From a bacterium (GTDB lineage: Bacteria; JAHJDO01): a stretch of 49,108 nt of DNA. The stretch spans positions 1-49,108 of the forward strand of contig JAUSPT010000071.1 in assembly GCA_030652805.1 (NCBI GenBank). The letters are read 5' to 3'. The notes beneath the pieces are model-generated. The model saw nothing but the letters and a program-made list of their open reading frames with translations, searched no databases and was not told the DNA's origin. Below are positions 7,488-43,972 of the stretch, in pieces. Both the position numbers and the translations under genes were made by a program. The stretch's first letter is position 1, and each line of letters opens with the position of its first letter.

Positions 7488-8534
7488 ATGTTGCGTTATC
7501 TTACAGCAGGTGAATCACATGGGCCAAGTCTTACAGCTATCCTTGAAGGCATGCCAGCTGGATTGAGGATAAATAAGGCAGAGATAAACAGAAAACTTGC
7601 AAGAAGACAATCCGGATATGGCAGAGGTGAAAGGATGCAGATTGAGCACGATACTGTTCAAATAACCTCTGGACTGCGCATGGGATTAACACTTGGCTCG
7701 CCGATTACAATGATCATAGGGAATAAGGATTGGAAGAACTGGAAAAATGAACCCCCTATAACAAGTCCCAGACCAGGACATGCTGATCTTGCTGGAATTA
7801 TGAAATATAATCAACTGGACATAAGGAATATCCTTGAGCGTTCAAGTGCTCGCGAAACAGCAGCTAGAGTTGCAGTTGGCACAATTACTAAAAAGCTACT
7901 TAATAAATTTGGTATAGAGATTATAAGTCGTGTATGCGAAATTGGCGGTGTGGAAAAAAATGAAAAACTAATGAGAGAGAAAATAGACCAAGCACGAAAA
8001 AACGGCGATAGTCTGGGAGGTATATTTGAAATAACAGTAAAGTATGTTCCTGTAGGATTAGGATCTCATGTGCATTGGGACAGAAAACTGGATGGAAGAC
8101 TGGCTCAATGTTTGATGAGCATTCAAGGAATAAAGGGTGTTGAAATAGGTCTTGGATTCGCTGCATCAAGAAAACCAGGTTCAAAGGTTCATGATGAAAT
8201 AATATATGACTACAATTTTGAACGAAGGACTAATAATGCCGGTGGAATTGAAGGAGGCATTTCAAACGGAGAGGACATAGTCATTCGCGGAGCAATGAAA
8301 CCAATTCCAACCCTTAAAAAGGCTCTTAACTCAGTAGATATAATTACAAAAAAAACTGTTAAAGCAAAAGTAGAACGTTCTGATGTTTGCGCAGTTCATG
8401 CTGCAAGCGTTGTAGGAGAAGCAGTCGTAGCCTTTGAAATTGCAAATGCTATGTGCGAAAAATTTGGCGGAGATAGTATTAAAGAGATGAAGCGAAACTA
8501 CAATTCCTACATTAGAACGATAAGAAGGATTTGA
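7488..8534 (+). CDS. aroC: Chorismate synthase
   Basis: Final shikimate-pathway enzyme: EPSP to chorismate, requiring reduced FMN. Family signatures are clear: [18 protein letters not shown] at the start, [29 protein letters not shown] (about residue 122) and [27 protein letters not shown] (about residue 245). The length of 348 aa is normal. RBS AGGAGGT at 7477-7483 overlaps the pyrE stop. The enzyme needs FMNH2; in anaerobes an outside flavin reductant must supply it, and a flavodoxin lies two genes upstream. That link is speculation. Confidence 0.96.
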
Positions 8535-8538
8535 AACG

Positions 8539-9159
8539 ATGAGACTTCAGGTAAATCCAACGCGAATGGAGGTGCTAAATCTTAGGCGAAGACTTGCACT
8601 TGCAAGACGTGGGCATAAGCTGCTTAAGGACAAACAGGATGAACTTATGCGCAGATTCATGATATTTCTGGATCATAACAAAGAGCTTCGTAAGAAAGTT
8701 GACGAGGAACTTAAAAAAATCTTTAATCTGTATTTGGGAGTATGTTCCCGGACAAATAAAGAATCATTATACTCTGCAATAAAATACCCTCAGAAGGTAC
8801 CAGAATTTCTTTCATCAAAACTAACAGTTCTCAATATAAAAACACCACACATTGAAATAAGCAAACAAGGGAATCCTTTTTCCTATGGATTTAAAGATTC
8901 CTCTCCAGATCTGGACACTACGTTAAGCATGCTGGATGCGCTTCTTCCTGAAATGTTGAAACTAGCAGAAATAGAAAAGCTCATACATCTGGTAGCAGAT
9001 GAGATAAAGAAAACCAGAAGAAGAGTCAATGCACTAGAATATATCTTAATACCAAATCTAGAAGAAACAATAACCTACATTACAATGAAGCTCAGCGAAC
9101 TTGAGCTTGCAAACATTGTCAGGCTAATGAAGATTAAGGATATTGCGCGGGCAAAATAA
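8539..9159 (+). CDS. ntpD: V/A-type ATPase subunit D
   Basis: Central-stalk (rotor) subunit of V/A-type ATP synthases or ATPases, coupling the catalytic head to the membrane ring. MRLQVNPTRMEVLNLRRRLALARRGHKLLKDKQDELMRR is the highly conserved N-terminal helix, and the C-terminus (RRRVNALEYILIPNLEETITYI) is the second antiparallel coiled-coil helix. The length of 206 aa is normal. No other ATPase subunit is nearby; it sits between aroC and ispD, 4 bp after the former and overlapping the latter (TAATG). The rest of the operon must be elsewhere, or this is a relic placement. Confidence 0.93.
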   Translation: MRLQVNPTRMEVLNLRRRLALARRGHKLLKDKQDELMRRFMIFLDHNKELRKKVDEELKKIFNLYLGVCSRTNKESLYSAIKYPQKVPEFLSSKLTVLNIKTPHIEISKQGNPFSYGFKDSSPDLDTTLSMLDALLPEMLKLAEIEKLIHLVADEIKKTRRRVNALEYILIPNLEETITYITMKLSELELANIVRLMKIKDIARAK

Positions 9160-32929: not shown

Positions 32930-32958
32930 TTGACAACAAATTTAGTTAGTGATAATAT
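32930..32958 (+). promoter_or_regulatory. rex promoter
   Basis: TTGACA (32930-32935) and TAATAT (32953-32958), spacing 17 bp. The -10 box is inside the first Rex-type palindrome. Another TTGACA at 32919-32924 has no fitting -10. It would drive rex and the hydrogenase operon. Confidence 0.65.
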
Positions 32959-32964
32959 TCACAG
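32947..32964. promoter_or_regulatory. Rex operator 1 (overlaps -10)
   Basis: GTGA (32949-32952), 6 bp, TCAC (32959-32962): the core of the Rex consensus TTGTGAAnnnnTTCACAA. The flanks are poorer than in the second site. Its centre is 21 bp, two helical turns, from that of operator 2. Confidence 0.6.
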
Positions 32965-32967
32965 GAT

Positions 32968-32985
32968 TTGTGAAGTTTATCACAA
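32968..32985. promoter_or_regulatory. Rex operator 2
   Basis: TTGTGAAGTTTATCACAA is an 18-bp palindrome with one mismatch to TTGTGAAnnnnTTCACAA. It lies between the -10 box and the rex start (ATG 32995), where bound Rex would block transcription. Rex binds when NADH/NAD+ is low, so this predicts induction of the operon by reducing conditions. Confidence 0.85.
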
Positions 32986-32994
32986 GGAACTAAG

Positions 32995-33630
32995 ATGGAA
33001 AGCTACAAAATTCCGAGAAAGTCAGTAGAAAGATTATCCATATATAGGCGGATTTTAATGGGAATAATGGACGCAGGTTTTACAACTGTCTCTTCTCGCG
33101 AACTTGCGGAAAGAGCTGGACTCAACTCTGCTCAAGTGAGAAAAGATCTTGTATATTTTGGCCAATTCGGAACACCTGGAATGGGATACAATGTTTCAAT
33201 GCTTCACAGGGCAATTACGAGGATAATGGGTTTGCATAAAAGAATTCCTGTGGCCTTAACAGGCGTTGGCAATCTAGGACAGGCCTTATTATCATATCCT
33301 GGATTTAAGGAACGTGGTTTTATAATAGAGTCTATTTTTGATAATGATCATGAAAAGGTTGGAAAGATAAAAAATGGATTAAAAATACGAGATGAGAAAA
33401 ATATTAGCAGTGAAATTAAAAATAAGAAGATCAAGGTAGGTATTATTGCAACACCTTCCCCTGTGGCGCAGTCCGCTGCTAATAAGTTAATTAAAGGAGG
33501 GATTAAGGGAATATTGAATTTTGCTCCAATAGAACTTAAAGTCCCCTCAGGAATAACAGTAGTTAACGTGGCGTTGTGCGAAAAGCTGGAAATGTTGTCC
33601 TATTATTTATCAAAAAGGAAATTGTTATGA
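32995..33630 (+). CDS. rex: Redox-sensing transcriptional repressor Rex
   Basis: NADH-sensing repressor of anaerobic metabolism. The N-terminal winged helix has SSRELAERAGLNSAQVRKDLVYFGQFGTPGMGYNV (about residues 37-71), the part that reads the operator. The Rossmann NAD-binding domain begins VALTGVGNLGQALLSYPGF (about residue 84). IIATPSPVAQSAANKLIKGGIKGILNFAPI is the second conserved block. The length of 211 aa is normal. It is preceded by two Rex-type palindromes, so it is autoregulated by inference, and it heads a hydrogenase operon. Confidence 0.94.
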   Translation: MESYKIPRKSVERLSIYRRILMGIMDAGFTTVSSRELAERAGLNSAQVRKDLVYFGQFGTPGMGYNVSMLHRAITRIMGLHKRIPVALTGVGNLGQALLSYPGFKERGFIIESIFDNDHEKVGKIKNGLKIRDEKNISSEIKNKKIKVGIIATPSPVAQSAANKLIKGGIKGILNFAPIELKVPSGITVVNVALCEKLEMLSYYLSKRKLL

Positions 33631-33974
33631 AAATTAGAGATATTGTCCGCATTTTGGAGGCTGAAATATTGTGTTGTGAAAATTGTCTTGGGAAGAGAAT
33701 TTTGGATTTTGCAGCAAGTGATCTTTTAAGTGATGTTCTGGCTTATGAAAAGGAAAACTATTTGCTTTTAACAGGACTGACTTCTCAACAAGTTGTCCGA
33801 ACGGCTGAGATAACAGGCGCGGTTGCTATTGTCTTTGTAAGAGGGAAACTTCCTCCTCAGGAGGCAATCGGATTGGCAAAATCTCATCATATTCCTCTCC
33901 TGATGACAGATAAATCAATGTTTGATTCTTGCAGGAAAATAACTGAGGAACTTAGTAAAGAAAAGAATAAATGA
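33627..33974 (+). CDS. DRTGG-like domain protein 1
   Basis: Small (115 aa) cytosolic protein of the DRTGG-like family, found with hydrogenase or phosphotransacetylase genes in anaerobes; function unknown. Conserved features are ASDLLSDVLAYEKENYLLLTGLTSQQVVRTAEI and AIVFVRGKLPPQEAIGLAKSHHIPLLMTD. Two cysteines (EILCCENCLGK) lie near the start. The ATG at 33627 is chosen over 33576, which is deep in rex. It overlaps the rex end by 4 bp (ATGA) and the next start. A homologue, 34908-35243, is encoded after the next gene. Confidence 0.82.
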   Translation: MKIRDIVRILEAEILCCENCLGKRILDFAASDLLSDVLAYEKENYLLLTGLTSQQVVRTAEITGAVAIVFVRGKLPPQEAIGLAKSHHIPLLMTDKSMFDSCRKITEELSKEKNK

Positions 33975-34921
33975 ATATATATAATCATTCTAAGGAAAAA
34001 TTAACACTGGCTAATGAGTTGATATATGAAATCAAGGTCAAGGAAGCAATGTCAAAAAACTTACTGTTCTTTAATGAAAATGCTACTTTCAGAGAAATTC
34101 AATTAGCACTCAAGGAGAAAAAAATTTCAGGAGTCCCTGTAATTGATGCTAAAAAAAATCTTGTAGGCATTGTAAGTATCGATGATATCATTACAGCTTT
34201 TGATAAGAACTACGTAGATAATAAAATTAGTGATTATATGACCAGAAATGTAATCACTATCCCCAAGAATTTTTCGGTAATTTCTGCAATTAACAGGTTA
34301 GAAAAATTTAAGGTGGGAAGACTTCCTGTTACCGAATCTTCAAAAAGCCGAAAAGTTGCAGGGATAATAACTCTTAGTGATATTTTAAACAGATTGTTAG
34401 TTGTAGTTCATTCAATTGCTGAAGAAGTTGAGGAGAGAGAAGCAAAAAACACCCAGATTTCTAAAAATTTAATAAGGGAAATTGCCAAAAAACCGCTACA
34501 ATTTGAAGTTAAGGGAGATGATTTTGATAATGCTGGTAGAGCAGCCAGCATAACCAAAAAGTACTTTCAAAACCTAGGAATTAGTAAAGATATTATTCGC
34601 AGGATTGCTATAGTCTGCTATGAAGCTGAAATGAATATTTGCCTTCATTCCTTAGGAGGAAATATCACTATTAAACTAGATGGTAATAATATTGCAATTT
34701 GTGCTTATGATAAAGGCCCTGGGATTGCTGATGTTAAACTGGCACTAAAACCAGGGTTTACCACAGCATCAGAAAAGATAAGGGCATTAGGTTTTGGTGC
34801 CGGCATGGGACTTCCTAATATAAAACGTTGTTCTGACAATTTAGAGATAAAATCTTGTTTAAAGGCAGGGACAATCTTAAAAGCAAAAATTAATTTAGGA
34901 GAGGGAAATGAGGCTATCTAA
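33971..34921 (+). CDS. CBS-pair / RsbW-like ATPase fusion
   Basis: A signalling protein of 316 aa. Residues ~20-155 form a tandem CBS pair (VKEAMSKNLLFFNENATFREI, GVPVIDAKKNLVGIVSIDDII, ISDYMTRNVITIPKNFSVI, GRLPVTESSKSRKVAGIITLSDIL), expected to bind adenine nucleotides. Residues ~175-316 form a GHKL ATPase of the SpoIIAB/RsbW kind: N-box IAIVCYEAEMNICLHS, G1 DKGPGIADV and G2 GFGAGMGLPNIKRCSD. No His-kinase phosphoacceptor domain is present. It may be a switch that senses energy charge and phosphorylates or binds a partner. Overlaps of 4 bp before and 14 bp after tie it to the two DRTGG-like genes. Confidence 0.85.
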   Translation: MNIYNHSKEKLTLANELIYEIKVKEAMSKNLLFFNENATFREIQLALKEKKISGVPVIDAKKNLVGIVSIDDIITAFDKNYVDNKISDYMTRNVITIPKNFSVISAINRLEKFKVGRLPVTESSKSRKVAGIITLSDILNRLLVVVHSIAEEVEEREAKNTQISKNLIREIAKKPLQFEVKGDDFDNAGRAASITKKYFQNLGISKDIIRRIAIVCYEAEMNICLHSLGGNITIKLDGNNIAICAYDKGPGIADVKLALKPGFTTASEKIRALGFGAGMGLPNIKRCSDNLEIKSCLKAGTILKAKINLGEGNEAI

Positions 34922-35243
34922 GATTATTGATAAATGCAAATTAGAAAAAATTGCTGTATGTTCGGATTGTGAAATTGAGACAGGATATTGCGGCGATTTA
35001 ATGTCTAATGTTATGGCTCATGCTGCTCAGAATTGTATTTGGGTTACTATACAGGCACATAAAAACAGTATCGCAGTTGCTCTCATTAAGGATATTCGGG
35101 CAATAATATTTACCAATAATGTACAAGTTGAACCTGAAGTAATTGAAAAAGCCAAAGAAGAGAAGATTAATTTACTGAGAACGGGAAAGGATTCCTTTGC
35201 GATTTGCGGAGAAATATATGGCATGCTGGAGGTTAAAAACTGA
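34908..35243 (+). CDS. DRTGG-like domain protein 2
   Basis: Paralogue of the 33627 gene, 111 aa. The family core reads GYCGDLMSNVMAHAAQNCIWVTIQAHKNSIAVALIKDIRAIIFTNN, and ends EKINLLRTGKDSFAICGEIYGML. VCSDCEIETGYC holds three cysteines near the N-terminus. Function unknown; a nucleotide or metabolite-binding regulatory role is likely. Its start overlaps the CBS-ATPase gene by 14 bp, and its stop (TGA) is entered by the CTG start proposed for the PHP gene. Confidence 0.78.
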   Translation: MRLSKIIDKCKLEKIAVCSDCEIETGYCGDLMSNVMAHAAQNCIWVTIQAHKNSIAVALIKDIRAIIFTNNVQVEPEVIEKAKEEKINLLRTGKDSFAICGEIYGMLEVKN

Positions 35244-35959
35244 AAAGGATTGATTTGCATATGCACTCTGCGCTTTCAGCTTGTTGCGCGGATGAAATGT
35301 CGCCAAGGATGATTTTAGATATGGCATTAAAAAGAAATTTAAATGTTGTTTCTATAACTGACCATAATGCTGTTAAGCATTCAATTGCAGCCTGTCAGTT
35401 AAGTAAAAAAGACTCGATTGCAGTTATCCCCGGTGTTGAGCTAACAACCAGAGAAGAAGTACATCTTCTGGCATATTTCCCGAATGTAGAGACTTTGTTA
35501 AAATTAGAAAAGAAAATAGATAGTTGTTTACCAAAAGCAAGTAATAATCCAAAAATTTTTGGGCATCAGGTACGTTATGATCTAAATGGAGAGATCGTTG
35601 GGCTTGATAACAAATTAAGACAGACAGCTCTGGATATGGGATTAGATAATCTTGTTGATTTTATTCATAACCTTGGGGGTATAGCGGTTCCTGCGCATAT
35701 TGATAAAGATAGGTTCAGCATGCTCAGCCAATTGGGTTTTTTAGATCCGGAAGCAAATTTTGATGCGGTGGAGATTTCCAAATTTAAATGGGGAAAAGAA
35801 AGTTTTCATTTGACAGACGTTTGGGAAGGGTTTCCTGTAATAGCAGGTTCTGACAGTCATGCTATCGATGACATAGGACTTTTTTTTATGGAAGATATCA
35901 ATGAAGAAATCAGCGATTTTTCATCTTTAAAAGATTTTTTTGGGGAAAATAAACAATGA
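35240..35959 (+). CDS. PHP-domain phosphoesterase (CTG start proposed)
   Basis: PHP-family metal-dependent phosphoesterase, about 240 aa, substrate unknown. Metal ligands are in DLHMHSALS, VSITDHNAVKHS, PGVELTTREEVHLLAYF, IAVPAHIDKDRF and AGSDSHAIDDIG. The first motif matters for the start: a TTG at 35255 would remove the Asp and Leu of DLHMHS. CTG at 35240 gives LKRIDLHMHS, the standard PHP opening (M-x-x-I-D-L-H-x-H-S), and has RBS GGAGG at 35228-35232, overlapping the previous stop as CTGA. It lies in a group of signalling-like genes and may turn over a phosphorylated signal (inference). Confidence 0.82.
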   Translation: MKRIDLHMHSALSACCADEMSPRMILDMALKRNLNVVSITDHNAVKHSIAACQLSKKDSIAVIPGVELTTREEVHLLAYFPNVETLLKLEKKIDSCLPKASNNPKIFGHQVRYDLNGEIVGLDNKLRQTALDMGLDNLVDFIHNLGGIAVPAHIDKDRFSMLSQLGFLDPEANFDAVEISKFKWGKESFHLTDVWEGFPVIAGSDSHAIDDIGLFFMEDINEEISDFSSLKDFFGENKQ

Positions 35960-36510
35960 AAGATTTAGCAGACCATTTATTTGACATTCTGGAAAATTCA
36001 GTGACGGCTGAGGCGACGGAAATTAAAGTTACATTGGGACTGTGTAATAAGCGATTTTTTTGTGAAATAAAAGATAATGGCAGAGGTATTAAAAGCGAAG
36101 ACGTGACTGATCCTTTTGTAACATCCAGAAAGGAACGAAAAGTTGGGTTGGGCCTTCCGCTTTTGAAGAAGACAGCAGAAAATACAAACGGATTTCTCAG
36201 GATTTCTAGATTAGAAGACAATGGAACATTCCTTGAATTTGAGACAGATATATCTCATATTGATGCAAAGCCATTCGGTAATTTGGCAAAGGTTTTTGTT
36301 GATGCTCTACGTTCATGGCCAGGGGTTGATTTTGAGGTTTTAATAGAGAGAAAAAAAAGCAAAAACGAACAAGTTCTTAATACAAAAGAAATTAGAGATA
36401 CTATGGGCTGTTCTGATATACAGTATAAAGAAATACAGGATTTTGTTTATCAATCTATTGACAAAGAACTTACAAGAATTGGTATTAACACACAATTCGG
36501 CAATTTTTAA
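35956..36510 (+). CDS. Stand-alone GHKL ATPase
   Basis: ATP-binding protein of 184 aa with the histidine-kinase-like fold only: N-box LADHLFDILENSVTAEA, G1 IKDNGRGIKSED and G2 KVGLGLPLLKKTAENT. It has no sensor, no phosphoacceptor His domain and no membrane helix. A C-terminal extension of some 80 residues (about 105-184) is not familiar. It may bind or phosphorylate one of the small partners in the operon. It overlaps the PHP gene by 4 bp. The first hydrogenase-type gene follows after 19 bp with its own RBS AAGGAG. Confidence 0.8.
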   Translation: MKDLADHLFDILENSVTAEATEIKVTLGLCNKRFFCEIKDNGRGIKSEDVTDPFVTSRKERKVGLGLPLLKKTAENTNGFLRISRLEDNGTFLEFETDISHIDAKPFGNLAKVFVDALRSWPGVDFEVLIERKKSKNEQVLNTKEIRDTMGCSDIQYKEIQDFVYQSIDKELTRIGINTQFGNF

Positions 36511-36529: not shown

Positions 36530-36895
36530 ATGAAAAACTTAGAAGAACTAAAGCAGATAAGGGATAAAGTAAAGAAAAATCTTCAGATGCGGTCGGGAAA
36601 ACACAAAGTTCGAATTGTTGTTTGCATGGCAACCTGTGGTATTGCTGCCGGAGCAAGGCAAACGATGAACACTCTGGTGGATCTTATTGAAAAGAGCAAT
36701 AGGGACGATATTGTAATCACTACTTCCGGTTGTGCTGGATTTTGTGAGCAGGAACCTATGATCCAAATTTACATAGAAGATAAGGAACCCGTGGTTTATG
36801 GAAAGGTTGACTTAAAGGCTGCGGAAGAAATCTTTGAGAAGCATATTCTAAATGGTCAGATTGTAGAAAGATATCTTTTTTCTAAGGGAAAATAA
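36530..36895 (+). CDS. HndB-like [2Fe-2S] protein
   Basis: Thioredoxin-like [2Fe-2S] ferredoxin, 121 aa, of the HndB type found in NADP-reducing hydrogenase operons. Four likely ligand Cys lie in VVCMATCGIAAGA (about residues 26-38) and TTSGCAGFCEQEP (about residues 63-75). The end YGKVDLKAAEEIFEKHILNG matches the family. It lies 2 bp before the first NuoE-like gene. It probably shuttles electrons within the hydrogenase complex. Confidence 0.85.
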   Translation: MKNLEELKQIRDKVKKNLQMRSGKHKVRIVVCMATCGIAAGARQTMNTLVDLIEKSNRDDIVITTSGCAGFCEQEPMIQIYIEDKEPVVYGKVDLKAAEEIFEKHILNGQIVERYLFSKGK

Positions 36896-36897
36896 TT

Positions 36898-37389
36898 ATG
36901 GAATGCCTTTGCAAAGAAAAGGAACTTACCAGTGAACAGAAATATAGCCAGCTTAAAGAGTTCATTGATAAAAGCAAGGATAAAAAAGGCTATTTAATTC
37001 CTGTTCTCCACATGGCTCAAACAATCTTTGGATATCTTTCCCTTGAAGTGCAAAATTTTGTAGCAATGGAAATGGATATTTCGGTAAGTATAGTTACGGG
37101 AGTGGTTACTTTTTATTCCTATTTTAAAACCTCTCCTACCGGCAGGCATACTATTACTGTATGTTTGGGTACGGCTTGTTATGTCAGAGGCGCAAAAAAA
37201 ATATTAGAAGCGCTTGAGAAAAAACTTGGTATCAAGATCGGTGAAACTACTGAAGATAGAAGATTTTCTCTTGGAGCGCAAAGATGTTTAGGGGCCTGCG
37301 GATTAGCTCCTGTCATTATGGTTGGCAAAGATATCCATGGACGGATGTCTGCTCAAAAATTAGATGCAATAATAGAACAATATAAATAA
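36898..37389 (+). CDS. NuoE/HydC-like subunit 1
   Basis: [2Fe-2S] thioredoxin-fold subunit (HydC, HndA or NuoE family), 163 aa. An N-terminal helical domain (GYLIPVLHMAQTIFGYLS) precedes the cluster ligands CLGTACYVRGA (about residues 88-98) and RCLGACGLAPVIM (about residues 129-141). VVTFYSYFKTSPTGRHTI is the conserved linker. It would pair with the NuoF-GltD protein directly downstream. A second, differing NuoE is encoded at 40393. Confidence 0.92.
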   Translation: MECLCKEKELTSEQKYSQLKEFIDKSKDKKGYLIPVLHMAQTIFGYLSLEVQNFVAMEMDISVSIVTGVVTFYSYFKTSPTGRHTITVCLGTACYVRGAKKILEALEKKLGIKIGETTEDRRFSLGAQRCLGACGLAPVIMVGKDIHGRMSAQKLDAIIEQYK

Positions 37390-37405: not shown

Positions 37406-40396
37406 ATGTATAATCTAAGAACGCATGTTCTTCTTTGTTATGGAGGCGCCTGCCTTTCTTCCGGTGCTGAAAGTCTTAAGGGAGCAATGGAGAAAGCAAT
37501 AAACGAAGTTGGCATTCAAAATGAAGTTGATGTTATTACTACCGGATGCATGGGAACCTGTGAGTTAGGTCCGGTTATGATTGTTTATCCTGATGGAGTA
37601 TTTTACCAAAAGGTTAAAGCTGAAGACGCGAAAGAAATTGTCCGTGAACATTTGCTAAAAGGAAGAGTGGTTAAGCGTCTTTTTTACAAAAAGCCAAAGA
37701 CTGAAGAAATGGTGGAAATGTTTAATGATATTGATTTCTTCAAGCTTCAGAAAAAAATAGCTCTCAGGAATTGCGGGATTATCAATCCGCTTGATATTGA
37801 TGAGTATATTGCCGCTGACGGATATATGGCTCTTGGAAAAGCGCTGACGGAAATGACTCCGCATAAAGTGATCAAAGAAATCAAAAGATCAGGACTCAGG
37901 GGACGCGGAGGGGCAGGATTCCCTACAGGTTTAAAGTGGGAGCTTACTGCCGCATCCGCAGGAAAACAGAAGTATGTGGTATGTAACGCTGATGAGGGCG
38001 ATCCCGGAGCTTTCATGGACAGAAGTATTCTGGAAGGAGATCCTCACAGTGTCATGGAAGCCATGATGATATGCGGTTATGCTATTGGCTCAAATCAGGG
38101 ATATGTGTATGTTCGCGCAGAATATCCACTGGCAGTAGAAAGATTATCGCTTGCCATTGAGCAGGCAAGGAAGAGCGAACTTCTTGGAGAAAATATTCTT
38201 GGAACAGGTTTTAATTTTGAGATAGATATCAGGATGGGCGCCGGAGCCTTCGTATGCGGAGAGGAAACTGCGCTTATGCGTTCCGTAGAAGGCATGAGGG
38301 GAGAACCGCGGACAAAACCGCCTTTTCCAGCTCAAAAGGGTCTGTTTGACTGCCCAACAGTGCTAAATAATGTAGAAACTTTTGCCAATGTCCCTTATAT
38401 AATTTTGCAAGGTGCTGATGATTTTGCTTCTGTCGGAACTGAGAAAAGTAGAGGAACAAAGGTTTTTGCTCTGGCGGGAGATATAAATAACACAGGTCTT
38501 ATTGAGATACCTATTGGAATGCCATTGGGAACAATTATCTATGATATCGGAGGAGGTATTCCAAATAATAAAAAATTAAAAGCAGTGCAGATTGGAGGCC
38601 CTTCAGGCGGATGCATTCCTGTTCAACACTTAAATGTACCCGTTGATTATGAATCATTGCAGGAACTCGGCGCTATTATGGGCTCGGGCGGTTTGATTGT
38701 TATGGATGAAGACACCTGTATGGTTGATCTGGCGCGCTATTTCATGGAGTTCATTCAGGAAGAGTCGTGTGGGATGTGTACTCCATGCCGTCAAGGAACG
38801 CGAATTATGCTGGACATTCTTACCAGGATCTGTGATGGAAAAGGCAGAATGGAGGACATCAATATTCTTGAAGAATTATCATATCAAATAAAACAAACTT
38901 CACTTTGCGGATTAGGACAAACTGCGCCAAATCCGATTTTATCTACTTTGAAATATTTCAAAGTAGAATATATTGAACATATCCGGGATAAAAAATGCCG
39001 CGCAGGAGTATGTTCAAAATTGGTATATGCTCCCTGCTCTAATATCTGTCCTGCATCAGTAGATGTGCCGGCCTATCTGGCATATACAAAAGAGGGCAAC
39101 TTCAAACAAGCTTTAAAGGTTCATTTGAAGACTAATCCGTTCCCTGCAGTCTGCGGACGTGTATGTCCACACCAGTGCGAAGCTAAATGCAGAAGGAACG
39201 ATATTGATTCGGCGGTAAACATTCGTTCTGTAAAACGTTTTATGGCAGATTCAATAGAAGATTATCTGGAATGTTTCCCTGAAAAGCGCAAGCCTAACAA
39301 ACTAAAGATAGCTGTAGTAGGTTCAGGACCATCAGGTCTATCCAATGCCTATTTTTTAACCATGCTGGGGTATGATGTAACTGTTTTTGAATCTGAGTCC
39401 AAAGCAGGAGGAATGCTTACCCACGCTATTCCTTCCTATAGACTTCCTAATAATATTGTGGAGAAAGAAATTCAGGCTTTATGTGGATATGGGGTGAAAA
39501 TAAAAACTGCTACGAATGTCGGCAGGGATATCAGCATTGACGAACTTAGAAAACAGGACTTTAAAGCTTTTTATATTGCTTCCGGCGCAGAGGATTCTAT
39601 TATGCCACGCATTGAAGGGATAGATAATGAAAAAGTTATGACTGGATTGGATTTTTTATATAAAGTAAATAACGAAGAAGAGGTAAATGCAGGAAAGGAA
39701 GTAGTAGTTATTGGCGGCGGAAACACAGCAATTGATGCTGCAAGAACAGCAAAACGACTTGGCGCAGATGTGACCATAGTATATCGTCGAACCAGAGAAG
39801 AAATGCCTGCTGAAATAGAGGAAATTAAGGAGGCGGAAAACGAGGGGATAAAGATACAGCTTCTTCAAAATATTAAATCAGTCAGGTCAATTAATAATGG
39901 GTTAGAAGTTGAATTTGTAAATATGCGGCTTAGCGAATTTGATAAATCAGGCAGACGAAGACCTGTCGAAATAGAAACATCTTCTTTTTTCAGGAAAATT
40001 GATTCATTGATTTTAGCTATCGGGCAGAAACCGTCTCATGGCGCTTTATTCGACAAAGGATTAATGAAAGATATGTTTGCCGGCGGGGATGTAGTAACAG
40101 GTCCTGCTACAGTGGTAGAGGCGATTGGGGAGGCGCAGAGAGCAGCAGAGGCTATTGATAAATATTTAACCGGCGGCAGAGAGAAATACCCATGGAATAT
40201 TATGAATCCAATTGAAGTTGCATTTGACACGGAAGAAGAACCTGTTAGTTATAAAAGAGAAAAAAATCTTTTGATTCCCTTAAAAGATAGAAAATCTTTT
40301 ACTGAAGTTGAAAAAACATGGAACAGAGAGACTGCCTGCAAAGAAACAGAGAGATGTCTGCGTTGTGAATATAAAAAAGAAGAGGAAGAGCTATGA
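37406..40396 (+). CDS. NuoF-GltD fusion flavoprotein
   Basis: A 996-aa redox protein. Order: thioredoxin-like [2Fe-2S] domain (LLCYGGACLSSGAE, TTGCMGTCELGP; residues ~1-100); NuoF/HydB core with FMN- and NAD-binding (RGRGGAGFPTGLKW ~165, CNADEGDPGAFMDR, CGEETALMRSVEG); SLBB; [4Fe-4S] site (SCGMCTPCRQGT ~455, with CGLG later). Then a GltD/NfnB-like module from ~540: Fe-S segment CSNICPASVDVPAY and AVCGRVCPHQCEAKC, FAD fold VVGSGPSGLSNAY ~637, NAD(P) fold VVIGGGNTAIDAA ~767, and CKETERCLRC at the end. It could link NADH and NADPH pools to the hydrogenase by two flavins. Its stop overlaps the second NuoE gene. Confidence 0.88.
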   Translation: MYNLRTHVLLCYGGACLSSGAESLKGAMEKAINEVGIQNEVDVITTGCMGTCELGPVMIVYPDGVFYQKVKAEDAKEIVREHLLKGRVVKRLFYKKPKTEEMVEMFNDIDFFKLQKKIALRNCGIINPLDIDEYIAADGYMALGKALTEMTPHKVIKEIKRSGLRGRGGAGFPTGLKWELTAASAGKQKYVVCNADEGDPGAFMDRSILEGDPHSVMEAMMICGYAIGSNQGYVYVRAEYPLAVERLSLAIEQARKSELLGENILGTGFNFEIDIRMGAGAFVCGEETALMRSVEGMRGEPRTKPPFPAQKGLFDCPTVLNNVETFANVPYIILQGADDFASVGTEKSRGTKVFALAGDINNTGLIEIPIGMPLGTIIYDIGGGIPNNKKLKAVQIGGPSGGCIPVQHLNVPVDYESLQELGAIMGSGGLIVMDEDTCMVDLARYFMEFIQEESCGMCTPCRQGTRIMLDILTRICDGKGRMEDINILEELSYQIKQTSLCGLGQTAPNPILSTLKYFKVEYIEHIRDKKCRAGVCSKLVYAPCSNICPASVDVPAYLAYTKEGNFKQALKVHLKTNPFPAVCGRVCPHQCEAKCRRNDIDSAVNIRSVKRFMADSIEDYLECFPEKRKPNKLKIAVVGSGPSGLSNAYFLTMLGYDVTVFESESKAGGMLTHAIPSYRLPNNIVEKEIQALCGYGVKIKTATNVGRDISIDELRKQDFKAFYIASGAEDSIMPRIEGIDNEKVMTGLDFLYKVNNEEEVNAGKEVVVIGGGNTAIDAARTAKRLGADVTIVYRRTREEMPAEIEEIKEAENEGIKIQLLQNIKSVRSINNGLEVEFVNMRLSEFDKSGRRRPVEIETSSFFRKIDSLILAIGQKPSHGALFDKGLMKDMFAGGDVVTGPATVVEAIGEAQRAAEAIDKYLTGGREKYPWNIMNPIEVAFDTEEEPVSYKREKNLLIPLKDRKSFTEVEKTWNRETACKETERCLRCEYKKEEEEL

Positions 40397-40863
40397 TGAT
40401 AAAAAAAATTGTTAAAAAGCACGGAAATAAAAAAGAGAATTTATTGCAGATACTGCATGACATTCAGAGCCAAAATCCAAAGAGCTACATTACTGAAGAG
40501 GATATTAATACGCTAAGTAGAGAAATGATTATATCTGTATCCGAAATTAAGGGAACTGCTTCTTTTTACACCATGTTTAGTTTTACACCGCGCGGTAAAT
40601 ATATAATCAGAGTTTGTGAGAGTCCACCATGCCATATTCTAGGCGCGCAAACTATTTTCGAAGCGATAGAATCAAAATTAGGGGTTAAGGCTGGAGAAAC
40701 AACTGATGATGGCCTTTTTACGTTAGAGGGAACAAGTTGTCTTGGGATTTGCGGAGTTGCTCCTGCTATGATGATCAATGATGAAGCCTATGGAAATTTA
40801 AACGAAGAAAAAATATATAAAATATTGGGGCAAATTCAAGAAAAGGAAGGGGGAAAAGCATGA
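40393..40863 (+). CDS. NuoE/HydC-like subunit 2
   Basis: Second [2Fe-2S] NuoE-like subunit, 156 aa. Cluster ligands: CESPPCHILGA (about residues 75-85) and SCLGICGVAPAMM (about residues 116-128). It has a basic N-terminus (MMIKKIVKKHGNKKEN) and KGTASFYTMFSFTPRGKYII as the linker. The start may be 40393 or 40396 (ATGATG). It overlaps both neighbours by 4 bp. It is only moderately like the first copy, so the two belong to separate sub-modules and are not a recent duplication. Confidence 0.92.
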   Translation: MMIKKIVKKHGNKKENLLQILHDIQSQNPKSYITEEDINTLSREMIISVSEIKGTASFYTMFSFTPRGKYIIRVCESPPCHILGAQTIFEAIESKLGVKAGETTDDGLFTLEGTSCLGICGVAPAMMINDEAYGNLNEEKIYKILGQIQEKEGGKA

Positions 40864-42158
40864 ATCGGATTGTTCTTGAGAACTGCGGGAAGATTAATCC
40901 TGAAGATATTGAAGAATACATCGGTGTTGGTGGATATGAAGCGCTAGGTATGGCTCTGGAGAGAAAAACGCCGGAAGATATTATTAAGACAGTAAAGGAT
41001 TCCAAACTTGTAGGAAGAGGGGGCGCAGGATTTCCAACAGGTTTAAAATGGTCATTTGCTAGAGCATCGAAAGAGACGCAAAAATATGTTATATGCAATG
41101 CGGATGAAGGAGAGCCAGGCACCTTTAAGGATCGCCTGATTATGGAGGGAGACCCGCATAAGGTTCTGGAAGGTATGGCGCTTTGTGGATACGCAATAGG
41201 TGCTAATACAGCTTATATCTACATTCGCGGAGAATACCAGCTTTCTATTCAAAGATTAACAAAAGCCATAAAAGACGCTGAGAAATTAGGGCTATTAGGT
41301 AAAAATATTTTCGGTGCGGACTTTGATTTTAATGTAAAGATTAAGATTGGAGCAGGTTCTTATGTTTGCGGAGAAGAAACAGCTCTTCTGAATTCAATGG
41401 AAGGATTAAGAGGCGAGCCGAGACTTAAGCCGCCTTTTCCTGCTGAATCAGGATTTTTATCCAAGCCGACAAACGTAAATAATGTTGAAACCTTTGCCAA
41501 TATAGCTCCTATTATATTAAACGGATCTGACTGGTTTAAGAAATTTGGAACAGAAAGCACTCCGGGAACTAAAGTCTATACCATATTGGGACATATAAAA
41601 CGTCCCGGCTTGATTGAGGTTCCCATGGGAATCACTCTGAGAGAGATTATTTATGATTATGCTGGAGGCATGTCTTCCGGAAAATTCAAAATGGCTCAAA
41701 TAGGAGGAACTGCCGGAGACATTGTTTCATCAGCTCTTATGGATGCTCCGCTTGAGTATCAGTCACTTCAGGCGCTGGGGCATAATCTGGGTTCCGGCGC
41801 AATATTGATTATGAATGAAACAGTTTTAGTTGCGGATTTCCTGGCTTGCTGCATGAAATTCTTTGTTCATGAGTCATGCGGAAAATGTTCTGTATGCAGA
41901 ATTGGTACAAAACAGATGTATAACGCTTTCAAACGCATGGAAAAGCAGGAAGCCTATTTTGATGAACTTGAGACTATAAAAGAGCTGGCTGAGGAACTTA
42001 AACTTACAGCTTTTTGTCCTATGGGACAGTCTGTTGCTTCACCCATTCTTTCTGCTTTGAAGTATTTTGGAAAGGAACTCGCTCTAGGAGTAAATCCTGA
42101 CAGGAAGCGAGAACCTGTAACCAGAGAAAACCCTAACATAGTATTAAACTATTCTTAG
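40860..42158 (+). CDS. NuoF/HydB-like subunit 2
   Basis: NADH- and FMN-binding subunit of bifurcating hydrogenases, 432 aa, without N-terminal ferredoxin or C-terminal 2x[4Fe-4S] extension. Motifs: GRGGAGFPTGLKW (about residue 53), CNADEGEPGTFKDR, YIYIRGEYQ, GAGSYVCGEETALLNSMEG, and the [4Fe-4S] site SCGKCSVCRIGT with FCPMG (from about residue 340). It would form the HydBC pair with the 40393 product next to HydA. The RBS (AAGGAAGGGGG) is strong and inside the end of the previous gene. Confidence 0.92.
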   Translation: MNRIVLENCGKINPEDIEEYIGVGGYEALGMALERKTPEDIIKTVKDSKLVGRGGAGFPTGLKWSFARASKETQKYVICNADEGEPGTFKDRLIMEGDPHKVLEGMALCGYAIGANTAYIYIRGEYQLSIQRLTKAIKDAEKLGLLGKNIFGADFDFNVKIKIGAGSYVCGEETALLNSMEGLRGEPRLKPPFPAESGFLSKPTNVNNVETFANIAPIILNGSDWFKKFGTESTPGTKVYTILGHIKRPGLIEVPMGITLREIIYDYAGGMSSGKFKMAQIGGTAGDIVSSALMDAPLEYQSLQALGHNLGSGAILIMNETVLVADFLACCMKFFVHESCGKCSVCRIGTKQMYNAFKRMEKQEAYFDELETIKELAEELKLTAFCPMGQSVASPILSALKYFGKELALGVNPDRKREPVTRENPNIVLNYS

Positions 42159-42181
42159 AAATGAATAAGGAGACAAGAGAG

Positions 42182-43972
42182 ATGCTGAACATTACGGTAA
42201 ATAATGCCCGCTTAGAAGTATCAGAAAATATAACGATTCTGGATGCTGCTAGAAAGATTGGAATAAAGATACCCACTTTATGTTATCTGGCGGATCTTCA
42301 GAACCCCGGATCATGCAGGATGTGTGTTGTAGAGGTAGAAGGAGCGAAAGCGCTTCAACCCTCATGTGTAACAAAAGTTTCTGAAGGCATGAAGATCCAC
42401 ACTAACACCAAAAAAGTGCGTGATGCCAGAAAGATAATATTGGAGCTGCTTTTAAGCGACCATCCATGGGAATGCAATACTTGTGACCGCAATCAGAGTT
42501 GCGAACTTCAGAAACTGGCGGATGAATATGGTATTAAGGAAGTTAGATTTCAGTCCGTAAGAGAGAGAATGCCTTTGGATGAAAGCACCCCCGGAATTGT
42601 CAGAGATCCAAATAAATGCATTCTTTGCAGAAGATGCGTTAGTGTGTGCCATGAGGTTCAGGGAGTAGACACATTAGCTCCAAGAGCGCGTGGGTTTGAT
42701 ACAATCATTGCGCCCGGGCAAGGAGATACGCTTGAAGAGGCTGTTTGTGTTCAGTGCGGACAGTGCGCTGCAGTTTGTCCTGTCGGAGCAATAAGTGAAA
42801 AAGATGATATTGACAAAGTGTGGACAGCTATTGATGATCCAAACAAGTTTGTGGTTGTTCAGACTGCTCCTGCAATTCGTGCAGCCCTTGGGGAATGCTT
42901 TGACCTAAAACCTGGAACTTTAATCAAAGGGAAAATGACAGCGGCTCTCAAAAGACTTGGATTTGATAAGGTATTTGATACTAACTTTACTGCTGATTTA
43001 ACTATTCTGGAGGAAGGCACAGAGCTTCTTACGAGGTTAAAGAAGGCACTGGTTGACAAGGATAAAAATGTAGCTCTGCCTATGTTTACTTCATGTTCGC
43101 CCGGATGGATAAATTACATGGAGAATTTTTATCCAGAACTAATTCCTAATGTATCCACCTGTAAGTCTCCTCAGCAGATGTTCGGAGCTATTGCAAAAAC
43201 ATACTATGCTAACAAAATTGGCAAGAAAAAAGAGGATATAGTAGTGGTATCTATCATGCCGTGTACTGCCAAAAAATTTGAGTGCAGTCGGGAGGAGATG
43301 AATGCCAGCGGAGTTAAGGACGTTGATTATGTGCTAACAACAAGAGAATTAGGCAGGTTTATTAAGCAGGCTGGCATAGACTTCGTGAATCTTCCTGATG
43401 AGGAAATGGATGCGCCTCTGGGTATATCTACTGGCGCTGCGGATATATTTGCAAATACCGGCGGAGTTATGGAAGCGGCTCTCAGAACAGCATATGAAAT
43501 TATTACAGGGAAAGAGCTGCCGTTTAATAAATTGCATGTTACTCCCATTCAAGGGCTTGACGGCCTAAAGGAAGCGTCTCTCAAGATAGAAGGCACAACA
43601 AAGGATTGGAGATTTCTTGAAGGTGTTACATTGAATGTTGCAGTTGCTCATGGTCTTGGAAATGCAAAGAAATTAATAGAATCAATAAAAAGCGGCAAAA
43701 AATCCTATCACTTTATAGAAGTCATGGCATGTCCCGGAGGCTGTATTGGCGGAGGCGGACAGCCGAGAATGACAACTAATGAAGTAAGACAGGCAAGAAT
43801 AAACGCAATATACAAAGAAGATGAAGGCAGAAAACTCAGAAAATCTCATGAAAATCCTGCAGTAAAGGAGATCTATGAGGAATTTCTTATAAAACCTCTC
43901 GGGGAAAAATCCCATCATCTTCTGCATACAACCTATACAAACAAAAAAGACCCATCCGAAAAGGAATGCTAA
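42182..43972 (+). CDS. hydA: [FeFe]-hydrogenase catalytic subunit HydA
   Basis: H-cluster protein with a NuoG-like N-terminus. Order: [2Fe-2S] ([20 protein letters not shown], with later PSC), His-ligated [4Fe-4S] ([17 protein letters not shown]), two [4Fe-4S] ([24 protein letters not shown]), then the H-domain: L1 [11 protein letters not shown]2 [13 protein letters not shown]3 [15 protein letters not shown], and a small-subunit-like tail. In L1 the usual CC pair is CS. The start is taken at 42182 because AAGGAG (42167-42172) is well spaced for it; 42161 would put this RBS inside the gene. At 596 aa it is of the HydA/HndD type. Maturation genes are not in the window. Confidence 0.94.

Follow-up and report, generated by a model that had tools for sequence, protein, structure and literature searches.

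A gene set of GHKL ATPases, DRTGG proteins and a PHP phosphoesterase in a likely rex-hydA operon is a CBS-input version of the set around group D putative sensory [FeFe] hydrogenases

Results and discussion

We analysed a stretch of 49,108 nucleotides of bacterial DNA (contig JAUSPT010000071.1 of assembly GCA_030652805.1, forward strand; hereafter "the window"), in which the genes from rex to hydA form one likely operon. Inside it lies a set of five genes (33627-36510) for signalling-type proteins, with rex on the 5' side and genes for NuoEF-type subunits and an [FeFe] hydrogenase on the 3' side. Our analysis revealed that this set is the CBS-input version of a gene set that surrounds group D putative sensory [FeFe] hydrogenases (HydS) in other bacteria; its parts are ordinary but the whole is unusual as a system, and as a cassette it was not found described in the papers searched. 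The genes, with the basis of each assignment, are:

32995-33630, plus strand: rex, NADH/NAD+-sensing repressor (open reading frame (ORF), Pfam)
33627-33974, plus strand: DRT1, stand-alone DRTGG protein with a DxxS motif, D32/S35 (Pfam, alignment, AlphaFold/Foldseek)
33971-34921, plus strand: CBS pair (residues ~20-145) fused to a SpoIIAB-like GHKL ATPase, GHKL1 (~180-310) (Pfam)
34908-35243, plus strand: DRT2, second DRTGG protein, DxxS motif D30/S33 (Pfam, alignment)
35240-35959, plus strand: PHP-domain phosphoesterase with complete metal ligands, CTG start proposed (Pfam, alignment)
35956-36510, plus strand: GHKL2, a separate GHKL ATPase that is extended at its C-terminus and has no phospho-acceptor histidine domain (Pfam, fold)

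The assignment to one operon is based on the overlap of the set with rex (33627-33630), on the overlaps within it (33971-33974 between DRT1 and the CBS-ATPase, 34908-34921 between the CBS-ATPase and DRT2, 35240-35243 between DRT2 and PHP provided that PHP begins at CTG 35240, and 35956-35959 between PHP and GHKL2), and on the mere 20 nt that separate GHKL2 from the first redox gene, which encodes a [2Fe-2S] protein. The first-pass annotation had described five signalling-type genes with overlapping ends between rex and the hydrogenase, and our analysis bears this out: all five ORFs were recovered, the proposed domains were found by Pfam, and the ATPase, PHP metal-site and CBS nucleotide motifs are all intact. 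The two DRTGG proteins score 25.3 and 30.3 bits (PF07085, cut-off 25.2), the CBS pair scores 91.7 bits in the same protein as an HATPase domain, the PHP protein scores 26.5 bits (cut-off 26.4), and the HATPase domain of GHKL2 scores 44.4 bits.

Domains, folds and active-site residues

PDB sequence searches with DRT1 and DRT2 returned nothing useful, and the fold of DRT1 was settled by structure search: the AlphaFold model (predicted local distance difference test, pLDDT, 97) is a DRTGG domain whose top PDB match in Foldseek is 2ioj (template modelling score, TM, 0.86). Among the aligned relatives the DxxS motif is invariant in both proteins (75/75 in DRT1, 75/75 in DRT2), and a further DRTGG protein encoded in this genome lacks it. 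GHKL1, whose match among named families is SpoIIAB, keeps the SpoIIAB-type catalytic Glu (E58), the N-box Asn (N62) and the GFGAGMGLPNIK loop, and its catalytic Glu is invariant among relatives. The CBS pair has nucleotide-type [S/T]xxD motifs, conserved in the sensor part comprising both domains, and probably binds an adenine nucleotide. The PHP protein has a full complement of metal ligands (D5, H7, H9, H42, E67, H75, H153, D205 and H207, numbered as in the aligned protein), and among its closest relatives of solved structure are an exoribonuclease and further PHP phosphoesterases. GHKL2 is closest in fold to the ATPase domains of MutL, GyrB and kinases; its ATPase domain occupies the N-terminal half, and a search for HisKA, which would mark a two-component histidine kinase, gave no match. 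Catalytic and ligand residues are kept across relatives in GHKL1, PHP, GHKL2 and the CBS motifs.

The start of the PHP gene needs correction, since the TTG chosen by the ORF caller (35255) cuts into the metal motif D-L-H-M-H, which requires residues encoded upstream. An in-frame CTG at 35240, which overlaps the DRT2 stop codon (CTGA), yields an N-terminus LKRIDLHMHS of the same form as in relatives, and is probably the true start. PADLOC gave no matches apart from weak PHP-domain ones, and we do not consider a defence function further.

Conservation of the set and its usual input, HydS

We scanned the ATPase domain of GHKL1 alone against 85,000 species genomes, found at least 582 relatives, fetched the best 80 loci and scored their gene content with profiles built from the window's own proteins. 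The set recurs in these 80 loci, mostly in the same gene order, in Atribacterota, Bacillota, Bacteroidota, Synergistota, Spirochaetota, Cloacimonadota and other phyla, and is thus kept far beyond this genome. Its core consists of GHKL1, DRT1 and DRT2, usually accompanied by PHP and GHKL2, and in locus L121 (7147-7956) DRT1 and GHKL1 are naturally fused in a single ORF of 270 residues that adjoins rex. True GHKL1, which in nine named genomes searched at a loose cut-off scores far above the SpoIIAB-like background, occurs at most once per genome in these nine, in a class of 37 genomes and in a phylum sample of 110; two copies are present in genome G057. Literature searches by domain names returned no description of such a cassette, which agrees with the earlier statement that comparable groups have no assigned role.

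In most of the loci GHKL1 is unfused and directly followed by a protein of ~440 residues that has the complete H-cluster cysteines and, C-terminally, a [4Fe-4S] motif. This protein is HydS of the TamHydS type, a putative sensory [FeFe] hydrogenase of group D known from Thermoanaerobacter (PMC8163306). The first-pass annotation missed that HydS is the usual input of the set. Within the class Thermoanaerobacteria (37 genomes sampled) GHKL1 is present in 33 genomes, all 33 of which have HydS at 663-825 bp, centre to centre, and 32 of which carry a catalytic HydA on the same contig at 7.0-8.7 kb; three further genomes with HydA have neither GHKL1 nor HydS. A sample of 110 evenly drawn Bacillota genomes gave the same picture: GHKL1 was found in 38, and HydS in 35 of these versus 0 of the 72 without GHKL1 (Fisher p about 1e-25, a statistic that ignores relatedness), all 35 lying beside GHKL1 with gaps of 15-395 bp. 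Where an unfused GHKL1 has no neighbouring HydS, one is encoded elsewhere in the genome (5/5 loci); in a sixth such locus the contig ends 25 nt after GHKL1. Immediately 5' of HydS copies that lie apart from the main set we also observed a small ORF (L112, 1066-1401; L113, 2891-3226), whose first residues suggest a possible further DRTGG-like protein.

The set is best compared with the group D (M2e) locus of TamHydS from Thermoanaerobacter mathranii (PMC8163306, PMC13104023). The Thermoanaerobacter loci L023 and L037 hold DRT1, GHKL1, DRT2, PHP and GHKL2 around HydS, followed by a bifurcating hydrogenase, as in the window, which has all of these accessory genes but lacks HydS and instead carries a CBS pair fused to GHKL1. 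In T. wiegelii (L037, 11755-12087) the gene after HydS encodes the DRTGG protein DRT2, and the "AraC family" neighbour of TamHydS named in PMC8163306 may be a misannotation, judging from T. wiegelii rather than T. mathranii itself.

A CBS pair in the place of HydS

The window itself and 22 of the 80 loci, from its own lineage and from others, have a CBS pair joined to the N-terminus of GHKL1, and no HydS follows. The window's genome has no HydS at all, as its sole Fe_hyd_lg_C protein is the catalytic HydA. Among 16 further CBS-type genomes, HydS is absent from 15, and ten lack any [FeFe] hydrogenase; in the sixteenth (G057) HydS belongs to a second DRT1-GHKL1-HydS set with an unfused GHKL1. 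In the Bacillota genome G155, from the even sample, the genes from rex to HydA are arranged as in the window, and HydS is again absent. Altogether HydS is missing in 17 of 19 CBS-type genomes (the 16, the window's genome, G155 and G106), many of the surveyed genomes being incomplete assemblies. Here, the CBS pair, a domain that commonly senses the energy state of the cell, takes the place of HydS.

The near-perfect pairing of HydS with GHKL1, together with the CBS pair on the same ATPase where HydS is absent, makes GHKL1 a likely candidate for the signalling partner of HydS, the identification of which was called critical in a 2026 paper (PMC13104023).

The enzymes next to the set

The redox part of the operon in the window is as follows:

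36530-36895, plus strand: thioredoxin-like [2Fe-2S] protein, the first redox gene (Pfam)
36898-37389, plus strand: NuoE/HydC-like subunit (Pfam)
37406-40396, plus strand: NuoF::GltD-like fusion (named-family match)
40393-40863, plus strand: second NuoE-like subunit (Pfam)
40860-42158, plus strand: NuoF/HydB-like subunit (ORF; served as the NuoF query)
42161-43972, plus strand: HydA, group A [FeFe] hydrogenase (sole Fe_hyd_lg_C protein in the genome)

The fusion of NuoF to a GltD-like NAD(P)-flavin domain (37406-40396), placed between two NuoE genes in the same operon as HydA, recalls the Sporomusa-type Nfn (Stn) transhydrogenase.

In many loci the enzyme downstream of the set is HydABC, and in others it is a molybdopterin enzyme of the formate-dehydrogenase type (NADH-formate dehydrogenase), subunits of the [NiFe]-hydrogenase type or an rnfCDGEAB operon, while HdrA-like proteins occur downstream in L053, L059 and L066. 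The partner enzymes were first called HydA by profile, but according to Pfam many of them are not. Downstream sequence of 7 kb or more is available for 62 loci, and 46 of these have a gene of the NuoF/RnfC family. The shared trait of the neighbours is therefore not the hydrogenase alone but the class of NAD(H)/ferredoxin enzymes, i.e. the electron-bifurcating Bfu (HydABC) family, which combines a NuoEF core with varied catalytic subunits (PMC9304861), plus Rnf. The cassette itself does not belong to the enzyme, and a word search of the main text of PMC9304861 found no mention of kinases, phosphatases or CBS proteins. This variety, together with the ten CBS-form genomes that lack [FeFe] hydrogenase, argues against a purely hydrogenase-directed role, and the earlier suggestion that the set acts on the hydrogenase as such is not supported. 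In a Neomarinimicrobiota chromosome (L032, 16530-18611), we also found, downstream of NuoEF, an ORF that encodes an amidohydrolase fused to a [2Fe-2S] domain of the NuoG type.

Transcription of the operon

Upstream of rex we found:

32930-32958, plus strand: near-consensus sigma-70-like promoter of the rex operon, TTGACA-17-TAATAT (sequence)
32947-32964, plus strand: second, imperfect Rex-operator-like site over the -10 element, with 2 mismatches (chance often yields sites of this kind, and it is notable by position only)
32968-32985, plus strand: perfect Rex operator, TTGTGAAGTTTATCACAA, matched exactly once in the window (and never in 100 shuffles)

All seven fetched loci of Atribacterial type that hold this region (L008-L014) contain one exact Rex operator each, which makes 8/8 with the window; the operator precedes rex in L008 and lies immediately before DRT1 in L009-L014. 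Transcription in Atribacteria is thus probably controlled by NADH/NAD+ through Rex, the five genes forming a second layer. Outside Atribacteria we saw no enrichment of operators ahead of DRT1, and we do not claim Rex control in general. Pfam recognises no DNA-binding domain in any of the five proteins and Rex already covers transcription, which fits the proposal of the first-pass annotation that the set acts after synthesis.

A possible signalling mechanism and its rivals

We regard it as nearly an even call that these five genes represent, with a CBS pair as input, a widespread signalling cassette which occurs in single copy and serves NAD(H)/ferredoxin enzymes (NuoEF-type bifurcating complexes and Rnf), the ATPase-DRTGG-PHP mechanism included; its anatomy and the pairing with HydS are firm, and we hold them with high confidence. 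The input would act on GHKL1, coming in most lineages from the separate HydS (H2 or redox state) and in the window from the fused CBS pair (probably via an adenine nucleotide). GHKL1 would then phosphorylate, or hold in an ATP-dependent manner, DRT1 and DRT2 at the serine of DxxS, PHP would reverse this, and GHKL2 would be another regulator that binds ATP. Through the DRTGG proteins the enzyme complex would be tuned after synthesis, in a direction that is presumed, while Rex would set transcription by NADH/NAD+. We propose this action of GHKL1, opposed by PHP, because GHKL1 keeps its Glu and Asn, no STAS protein or SpoIIE phosphatase was found in the window's genome (95.6% complete), DxxS is invariant, DRT1 and GHKL1 are fused in L121, and the PHP ligands are intact. 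Phosphorylation itself is possible, yet we put it forward tentatively, at best on a par with the reading as a whole. Of the original idea of a phosphorylation or nucleotide switch on the hydrogenase, the switch survives, but its restriction to hydrogenase fails on the varied neighbouring enzymes.

Several points weigh against this signalling cassette. GHKL1 could be an ATPase only, and the known PHP enzymes mainly have nucleotides or nucleic acids, rather than phosphoproteins, as substrates. PHP and GHKL2 are missing from some loci, and DRT1 and GHKL1 are fused in one locus only. The input is not always needed, as the Bacillota genomes G076 and G103 have GHKL1 but neither CBS nor HydS. Locus L119 (genome G106; 7676-8581) carries both the CBS-GHKL1 protein and HydS, adjacent to each other and 5' of rnf genes, so the exchange of inputs is strong but not strict, and we dropped strict mutual exclusion. 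Finally, the CBS/HydS split needs only few changes on the GHKL1 tree; the many loci are therefore not independent events, and the pattern rests on a few.

The main rival is nucleotide signalling without protein phosphorylation, in which the CBS pair and/or DRTGG would bind a nucleotide (e.g. AMP or Ap4A), PHP would destroy it, and the GHKL proteins would be ATP-gated binding partners. The conserved [S/T]xxD motifs and the complete PHP metal site, with an exoribonuclease among the nearest solved relatives, are in its favour, and the fold of DRT1 also matches nucleotide-sugar enzymes of the MurE/LpxD fold as well as the CBS-DRTGG region of the family II pyrophosphatase from Clostridium perfringens (3l2b and 3l31, titled as complexes). 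In that clostridial enzyme the CBS pair and DRTGG are jointly regulatory, but they share one chain with the pyrophosphatase, whereas the window has separate proteins, ATPases, a PHP protein and DxxS in DRT1 and DRT2. Loci of the HydS type retain DRTGG and PHP without any CBS pair, and an invariant SpoIIAB-type catalytic Glu in GHKL1 would be needless for a pure binder, which leaves this alternative rather unlikely, if still a serious one.

A role in assembly or maturation, with the GHKL ATPases and DRTGG proteins acting like chaperones for flavin/FeS NuoEF or Rnf complexes under gating by HydS or CBS, would agree with the presence of the set beside several kinds of these enzymes and with the fold relatives of GHKL2. 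We consider it improbable, as the three Thermoanaerobacteria genomes that hold HydA without GHKL1 indicate that the set is not generally required, it is almost always present in one copy per genome even with several such enzymes, and the use of an H2-sensing hydrogenase or a CBS pair as input would be left unexplained.

GHKL1 shares fold, catalytic Glu and N-box Asn with the anti-sigma kinases SpoIIAB/RsbW, its match among named families, and one could imagine an anti-sigma partner switch that controls transcription of the operon. At the system level the comparison with RsbW made in the first-pass annotation breaks down, since the genome lacks the STAS partner and the SpoIIE-type phosphatase; GHKL1 is instead fused to CBS or paired with HydS, and there is no sigma gene in the set. 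A HATPase_c_2 search of the window's genome returned other ATPases only. As the Rex operators already account for transcription, we judge such a switch very improbable. A chance neighbourhood of unrelated genes, for which we found nothing, is refuted by the gene order conserved across phyla and by the near-perfect pairing.

Conclusions

Returning to the signalling cassette, a broader and slightly more doubtful proposal is a system whose inputs can be swapped, H2 through HydS or energy charge through a CBS pair, and whose single ATPase-DRTGG-PHP core would control the whole NAD(H)/ferredoxin class after synthesis, with the DRTGG proteins as phospho-carriers and GHKL1 as the missing partner of the group D enzymes. 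To our knowledge no phospho-carrier role is known for the DRTGG domain. For signal transfer from group D sensory hydrogenases, the pairing puts forward a small ATPase, and the question can be addressed with small proteins. Our results also suggest that anaerobes may tune bifurcating hydrogenases, formate dehydrogenases and Rnf via one shared switch.

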